The notes beneath the pieces were generated by a model. That model was not told where the DNA came from and searched no databases. It saw only the letters and a program-made list of their open reading frames with translations. From Terriglobia bacterium (GTDB lineage: Bacteria; Acidobacteriota; Terriglobia; Acidiferrales; UBA7541), in contig JAIQGG010000004.1 in the NCBI GenBank assembly GCA_020072785.1, positions 124,001 to 188,000 of the forward strand: 64,000 nucleotides of DNA, in the 5' to 3' direction. Position numbers and translations under genes: made by a program. Positions 8,679 to 18,029 of this stretch are shown here, piece by piece (position 1 is the stretch's first letter; each line of letters begins with the position of its first letter).

Positions 8679-9212
8679 TCAGGACGGTTTGCGTAGCCGG
8701 TCCAGCAGGAAGAACAGCCCGACGGCCACGACGCCGTTCACCAGCGCCGCCAGCCCCAGCCGCATCGTGAACCAGGTCTCCGGCTGCGCCAGCAGCAGGC
8801 GCTTGATCAGCACAATCACTCCCTGATGCACCCCGAAGAAGACAATGGTCAGCGCGAAGCGGCTTGCCGGGTGTTCCGTGTCCAGCCGCCCTCCGATGGA
8901 CGAGGCGATGAACCCGATCACTGTTTTCGCAATGCCGTAAAGGCCCAGCGGCGACTTGCTGAGGCTGTCCTGCAACAGTCCGATCACCATCCCCAGTAGC
9001 AGCCCCGTCGAGGGATTGCGCCGGCTCAGCCCGAAATACGTGGTCAGCAGCAGCGGCAGGTCCAGGATGGCGGCCTTGGGGAAATAGACGGGCAGCAGCG
9101 CCTGCAGCACCAGCGCCGCCACCATGGTCGCCACCACCGCCCCGGCGCGAAACTTGTGCACCTCGATGTGTGTTTCCGTGTCCAGGCGCAGGTCAAAGGT
9201 ATCGTTGTTCAT
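8679..9212 (-). CDS. mreD: Rod shape-determining protein MreD
   Basis: Inner-membrane protein of the elongasome that interacts with MreC. The 177 residues carry five or six hydrophobic helices with the typical short loops (LLTTYFGLSRRNPSTGLLLG, LQDSLSKSPLGLYG). Its ATG overlaps the mreC stop by 4 bp, so the two are translationally coupled. In related genomes mrdA usually follows directly; here 4 kb of opposite-strand genes intervene. Confidence 0.92.
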   Translation of the reverse strand: MNNDTFDLRLDTETHIEVHKFRAGAVVATMVAALVLQALLPVYFPKAAILDLPLLLTTYFGLSRRNPSTGLLLGMVIGLLQDSLSKSPLGLYGIAKTVIGFIASSIGGRLDTEHPASRFALTIVFFGVHQGVIVLIKRLLLAQPETWFTMRLGLAALVNGVVAVGLFFLLDRLRKPS

Positions 9213-12660: not shown

Positions 12661-12870
12661 GGTTTTTGGCGCAGCTGGAGCGCTAATTTAACAATTTAGC
12701 ACAGCGCTCCGGGAGCGTCCAACGCCTGCGCGCCTGCGTACTCTATCAGCAAACACCGTCTCCGCCTTTCCTTCCGATCCCGCAGCCCCGCCGCTGCTTC
12801 CCGGACGATGCCGGATGTCCTGCTTCCCGGCCCTCTTTTTGCCCCCGGCGCCGCCCTTGTGCGTTTCCGG

Positions 12871-17238: not shown

Positions 17239-17432
17239 CTTGTCTTTCTTGCTTGCCTGCGTCCCCGCAGGATGTGCCGCCTCGCACGGCGGCCATTCCC
17301 ATTGCTTCTGATTTTCTGCTACCCTGCAGCGTCATCTCGCTCAGCGCGGCCCGTCCGCGGCCCATGCGAGGACCGCTGCGAAGCGCTGCTGGGCAACGCA
17401 CGCCGCGAACGCGGGCTCACGGGAGGCACCCC

Positions 17433-18029
17433 ATGGAACCGATGTACCTGAAAGACGTGGAAAAGGCGCTGGGCAGCGATTTCCGCGCCCGCATGATCGC
17501 CAGGATGCGCGAAGCCGGCCGGAGCGTTCCCCAGATTTTCCACATGTTTGCCTTCAAGCCCGGCGCTACGGCCCATCTCGAGCGCTATACCCAGGAGGTC
17601 ATGCGCGGCCCCTCGCCTCTCTCGCCCGGCATGCGCGAATTGATTTCTGCTTTCACCTCCAGCCTCAACCATTGCCCGTTTTGAACCGGCACCCATTCCG
17701 CCGGTGCGGCGGAACTCCTCGGCGACCGGAAACTGGTGGACGCGGTGCTTCGCGACTTCCGTTCCTCGCCTCTGTCGGAACCCGAAAAGGCTCTCTTCGC
17801 CTTTGTCGAGAAGCTCAATGACCAGCCGCACGCGATCTCCCAGCAGGACGCGGACACGCTCAAGACCGCCGGCTGGTCCGACGAAGCCGTCTACGACGCC
17901 ATCACCGTCTGCGGCCTCTTCAATTTCTACAATCGCTGGTGCGATGGCGCCGGCGTCCACGCCCTCTCCCCGGAGGAATTCGTGGAATCCGGCAAGCGCC
18001 TTGCCCGCTTCGGCTACATCGGGGGATAG
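17433..18029 (+). CDS. AhpD-like peroxidase-related selenoprotein candidate (UGA as Sec84)
   Basis: Carboxymuconolactone decarboxylase/AhpD-type protein, a family of thiol-dependent alkylhydroperoxide reductases. ATG 17433 follows GGGAGG with 6 nt spacing. The frame reads MEPMYLKDVEKALG to SSLNHCPF, meets TGA at 17682-17684, and continues in the same frame as TGTHSAGAAELLGDRKL to GYIGG at 18029. The TGA takes the place of the second cysteine in the family motif CxxC-x3-H, giving C81-P-F-U84. Both sides are typical family sequence, so the TGA is very likely read as selenocysteine. A SECIS-like hairpin lies at 17696-17714. Without Sec insertion the product would be an 83-residue fragment. Selenocysteine machinery genes are not in this window. 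Confidence 0.85.
17696..17714 (+). promoter_or_regulatory. Bacterial-type SECIS hairpin downstream of the UGA codon
   Basis: Perfect 7 bp stem TTCCGCC / GGCGGAA with apical loop GGTGC. The loop begins 18 nt after the UGA and starts with GG, which meets the known rules for bacterial SECIS elements (loop 16-37 nt after the UGA, G among the first two loop bases). E. coli fdhF has GGUCU in this position. Confidence 0.8.

Follow-up and report, generated by a model that had tools for sequence, protein, structure and literature searches.

AhpD-like proteins with a CxxU motif, encoded together with predicted SECIS elements, have been known since 2005 from a report on the Sargasso Sea (PMC1088965), and a 2026 review lists 'AhpD-like protein, TIGR01926, CxxU' as a selenoprotein (PMC13188914). 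The same source gives the rules for bacterial SECIS (bSECIS) elements: a loop of 3-9 nt with a G in its first two positions, a spacing of 16-37 nt between the UGA and the loop, and a stem of 4-16 bp with a stability of -7.5 kcal/mol or lower.

The gene considered here lies in an acidobacterial genome, within a stretch of 64,000 nucleotides referred to below as the window. It shares with the known AhpD-like CxxU selenoproteins (TIGR01926/COG2128) the family model, the CxxU motif, the UGA at the second redox position and the hairpin downstream. Because such proteins have already been reported, the window gene adds one more member to a known family and carries a standard element. What differs from the earlier reports is its setting, an acidobacterial genome with some 90 relatives in Acidobacteriota and Myxococcota, in which covariation can be counted. 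A literature search found no description of this acidobacterial group, which is not proof of absence. We put at about 0.95 the probability that positions 17696-17714 form a bacterial SECIS that lies within the reading frame of an AhpD-like selenoprotein gene, the UGA of which would be read as selenocysteine (Sec).

The gene and its predicted product

An open reading frame of 198 codons runs from an ATG at 17433 to a TAG at 18027-18029 and contains a single in-frame UGA, around which the translation reads NHCPFUTGTH (Table 1). The predicted product, 198 residues long, belongs to the AhpD/CMD superfamily and carries its redox pair as CPFU. It scores above the family cut-off of TIGR01926, 'peroxidase-related enzyme' (112.9 bits; cut-off 81.8), and matches PF02627 with 30.1 bits (cut-off 23). 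A solved AhpD-like protein, PDB 3c1l, aligns with it at E = 1e-21, and the CxxC of that structure matches CPFU. Residue 84 is the second member of the pair, the place of the reactive residue in AhpD. The protein is probably a selenol/thiol peroxidase or a disulfide reductase. Inspection by eye of the flanks of five relatives revealed no obvious common neighbor gene.

Table 1. Features of the AhpD-like gene and its putative SECIS element (window positions)
Feature	Position	Strand	Basis or remark
Shine-Dalgarno-like GGGAGG	17421..17426	+	6 nt upstream of ATG; direct reading
Predicted AhpD-like (peroxidase-related, TIGR01926) selenoprotein gene	17433..18029	+	translation with UGA = U; family scores
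TGC codon, Cys81, first position of CPFU (CxxU) redox motif	17673..17675	+	reading, translation, alignment with CxxC of 3c1l
UGA codon, predicted selenocysteine 84, second CxxC/CxxU position	17682..17684	+	homologues: UGA 91, Cys 19, Ser 1
CAT codon, His four residues past Sec84 (U-x-x-x-H)	17694..17696	+	translation; His there in listed homologues
Putative SECIS stem, 5' arm TTCCGCC	17696..17702	+	reading, folding, rule scan
Putative SECIS apical loop GGTGC	17703..17707	+	folding; G17703-C17707 may pair, leaving GUG
Putative SECIS stem, 3' arm GGCGGAA	17708..17714	+	reading, folding, rule scan

A more distant group of AhpD-like proteins, comprising AhpD_rel_CFYUT (NF041238) and proteins with CFYU or CHYU motifs, has in common with the window gene the superfamily, the UGA codon and the place of a SECIS-like hairpin. 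It differs in sequence, with an identity near 30% or a score far under the cut-off of the family model; the window protein reaches only 37.2 bits against NF041238, for which the cut-off is 175. Related genomes encode distant proteins of this kind (L022-L029, L033, L034, L036 and L039, at about 30% identity) with UGA at the same codon. In most of the distant UGA genes the hairpin reads CACGGRGA-GGA-UCUCCGUG, in the same place as the family's GCCGC-GGUC-GCGGC, and Cys relatives at that level lack one.

A hairpin that follows the bSECIS rules

The hairpin had been picked out in a first-pass annotation as a perfect 7 bp stem, TTCCGCC/GGCGGAA, with a loop GGTGC that starts with GG 18 nt after the UGA, and as a match to the published bacterial rules. 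Its coordinates prove exact, and the match extends to the loop, the G, the spacing, the stem and the stability. Folding adds an eighth pair, G17703-C17707, which leaves a GUG triloop and is more stable than the 7 bp form (-12.2 versus -11.0 kcal/mol). Both forms satisfy the rules: the loop, GGUGC or GUG, is within 3-9 nt and has a G in its first two positions; the stem of 7-8 bp, at -11.0 to -12.2 kcal/mol, is inside the limits of 4-16 bp and -7.5 kcal/mol; and the spacing from the UGA is 18 nt (17685-17702), or 19 nt with the triloop, within 16-37 nt. Compared with the bSECIS consensus (PMC13188914), the window element is the same in stem length, small loop, loop G, spacing and stability and in lying directly past the UGA inside coding sequence. 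Nothing essential differs, the loop being GGUGC here and GGUC or AGUU in most homologues. At gathering thresholds, Rfam gave no match at the hairpin site, although it may have no model for such elements.

Over both strands of the whole window, a hairpin that obeys the rules, with a stability of -7.5 kcal/mol or better, follows 126 of 1451 TGA triplets (8.7%), and one at least as stable as that of the AhpD-like gene follows 16 of the 1451 (1.1%). Permutation of synonymous codons inside the gene gives p = 0.045. The folding of the 48-91-nt context is not significant against dinucleotide shuffles (z of -0.03 to -1.26) and is not counted as support. Taken alone, in GC-rich sequence, the hairpin is only modest evidence, and the 8.7% background and the permutation value are what speaks for the alternative that GC-rich alanine codons happened to produce it, with Sec decoding directed by some other element. 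Weight was therefore placed on the homologues. The annotation had taken the hairpin as support for Sec decoding that does not depend on homology; for the single sequence this is too strong, given controls of 0.01-0.09, but the support becomes strong once homologues are compared.

Hairpins in UGA and Cys/Ser homologues

Homologues were gathered by searches of relatives, of the phylum, of the class and of a species-wide collection, supplemented by further matches, and were read at the aligned codon. At 40% identity or more, the set comprises 91 distinct UGA genes and 20 genes with TGC, TGT or TCC at that codon (19 Cys and one Ser, encoded by TCC). The family is spread over many families of the Acidobacteriota and is found also in Corallococcus and another Myxococcaceae genome. 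Two genomes carry UGA and Cys copies side by side (L104/L127 in G573 and L115/L154 in G583).

Hairpins that conform to the rules, at -7.5 kcal/mol or lower, are present in 89 of the 91 UGA genes but in only two of the 20 Cys/Ser genes (Fisher p about 1e-16, a value that ignores the relatedness of the genes). In 87 of the 89 the loop lies 17-23 nt past the UGA, and in the two Cys/Ser genes with a hairpin it lies 24 and 27 nt past the codon. The UGA genes without a hairpin of that stability are L059 and L131, the latter falling just short at -7.0 kcal/mol, and in L143 and L144 the best-scoring hairpin is at another place. The mean best energy of the UGA genes is -10.4 kcal/mol versus -6.9 in synonymous permutations, and that of the Cys/Ser genes is -3.9 versus -3.6; the latter is close to the permutation level, and there is thus no sign of selection for a hairpin in the Cys/Ser genes. 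Equal conservation of the hairpin in Cys homologues, named at the outset as an observation that would count against a SECIS, is not what the family displays.

Covariation at synonymous sites

Counting nucleotides after the UGA, the main stem of the family pairs 12-17 with 22-27 and encloses a loop, GGUC, at 18-21. Three of its pairs, 12-27, 15-24 and 18-21, each link two third-codon positions and are therefore free to vary without change to the protein. When every combination of two wobble columns within the first 33 nt is ranked by excess mutual information, 18-21 and 15-24 come out on top (z of 30 and 17, respectively, with kinship ignored). In the 91 UGA genes, pair 15-24 is C-G in 80, U-A in 5, U-G in 2, G-U in 1, A-U in 1 and unpaired in 2, the U-G combinations being intermediates of the change from C-G to U-A. 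Pair 18-21 is G-C in 65 of the UGA genes and A-U in 16. In the Cys/Ser genes, 15-24 can pair in 5 of 20 and 18-21 in 6 of 20. The contrast persists when the encoded amino acids are held constant: among genes that encode HAAVA, both pairs form in all 74 UGA genes, whereas in the six Cys genes 15-24 forms in none and 18-21 in two.

Because homologues are related, raw counts overstate their independence. A protein tree from which the Sec/Cys site and the codons of the hairpin had been masked requires five exchanges between C-G and U-A at 15-24 and 11 between G-C and A-U at 18-21. The codon itself changed between UGA and Cys at least four times, three of these changes being forced by supported branches, and the hairpin accompanies UGA in almost every independent pair. 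The supported pairs of this kind number only 3-5, and sign tests alone fall short of 0.05; with the three pairs on supported branches that value cannot be reached.

An absence of stem covariation among UGA homologues had been named as the second observation that would speak against a SECIS. Compensatory changes are instead present at the synonymous sites 15-24 and 18-21, and constraint on the protein cannot explain them. A hairpin produced by chance from alanine codons is accordingly a very improbable reading, at odds with the distribution between UGA and Cys/Ser genes, with this covariation and with the amino-acid-matched contrast. The comparison of homologues makes the evidence for a SECIS decisive.

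Register of the helix

In the window gene, as in the two relatives closest to it (L011/L040 and L012/L041), the arms are 12-18 and 24-30 and the loop is GGUGC. Placed in the main register of the family, the window gene forms only four contiguous pairs. Since the register of the window clade is shifted, covariation supports the family element and bears on the exact pairing in the window only by homology; that pairing rests on its greater stability and on its nearly unchanged place. In the main register, the loop GGUC or AGUU has a covarying apical N1-N2 pair. The odds seem about even that the helix of the window clade has slipped, from arms 12-17/22-27 with loop GGUC/AGUU to arms 12-18/24-30 with loop GGUGC, possibly by way of dual-register sequences like that of L084, which on reading is able to form either register. 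If so, the family would record a shift of a SECIS helix by one to two nt with the position of the loop almost fixed.

The family loop GGUC may resemble that of the E. coli formate dehydrogenase element, a likeness that we do not use as evidence. A search of the available literature returned nothing on how SelB recognizes GGUC loops.

Selenocysteine machinery and the reading of the UGA

The predicted Sec-decoding set of the host genome, selA, selB, selC and selD, is complete. The scores are 556 bits for selA (cut-off 268), 356 for selB (cut-off 242) and 349 for selD (cut-off 125), and two tRNA-Sec genes with a UCA anticodon score 66 and 61 bits (Rfam cut-off 47). With these components, the mRNA hairpin, with its G at the loop, would presumably be bound by SelB together with Sec-tRNA-Sec and GTP, and the UGA, which precedes the loop by 18 nt, would then be decoded as selenocysteine at position 84. 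Across the family, tRNA-Sec was found in 56 of 63 genomes with the UGA form versus 7 of 17 in which the Cys/Ser form stands alone (Fisher p = 1e-4); some of the seven UGA genomes in which it was not found are incomplete or fragmented assemblies.

Two features of these genes may be recorded in their own right. The selD gene (L098, contig C1:111200-112165) is itself a selenoprotein gene: its motif KAAGUAAK contains an in-frame UGA, after which comes a hairpin that obeys the rules (-8.4 kcal/mol). The tRNA-Sec genes (L009, about 9065-9163 and 12714-12812; contig C2 at 1112064 and 1115713) lie 3.6 kb apart, are similar but non-identical, and flank a long open reading frame; two copies are present also in the relatives G032, G036, G569 and G711, and one in most.

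If the UGA were an ordinary stop, as translation table 11 has it in ending the frame at 17684, the locus would encode a truncated protein of 83 residues or be a pseudogene. This is scarcely credible, because in the UGA homologues the conserved frame runs on through the AhpD domain interrupted, as the searches reported, by one TGA and by no further stop, because the Cys homologues have Cys at this codon, and because the genome holds Sec machinery. That a suppressor tRNA decodes the UGA as Cys or Trp is just as hard to credit: unusual allo-tRNAs, which occur in Acidobacteria among others, and selC* tRNA-Cys do exist in some bacteria (PMC7609411), but both UCA-anticodon tRNAs here score as tRNA-Sec above the Rfam cut-off, SelA, SelB and SelD are encoded in the genome, and such decoding would not require a covarying hairpin restricted to UGA homologues.

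Concluding remarks

The SECIS mechanism itself is textbook. What the family offers is an unusually clean natural test of it, in which some 90 genes with UGA can be set against 20 with Cys or Ser, and it documents AhpD-like selenoproteins widely in the Acidobacteriota and also in the Myxococcota. For the window gene, standard annotation would end the protein at codon 84; read with its hairpin, it very probably encodes a full-length selenoprotein.
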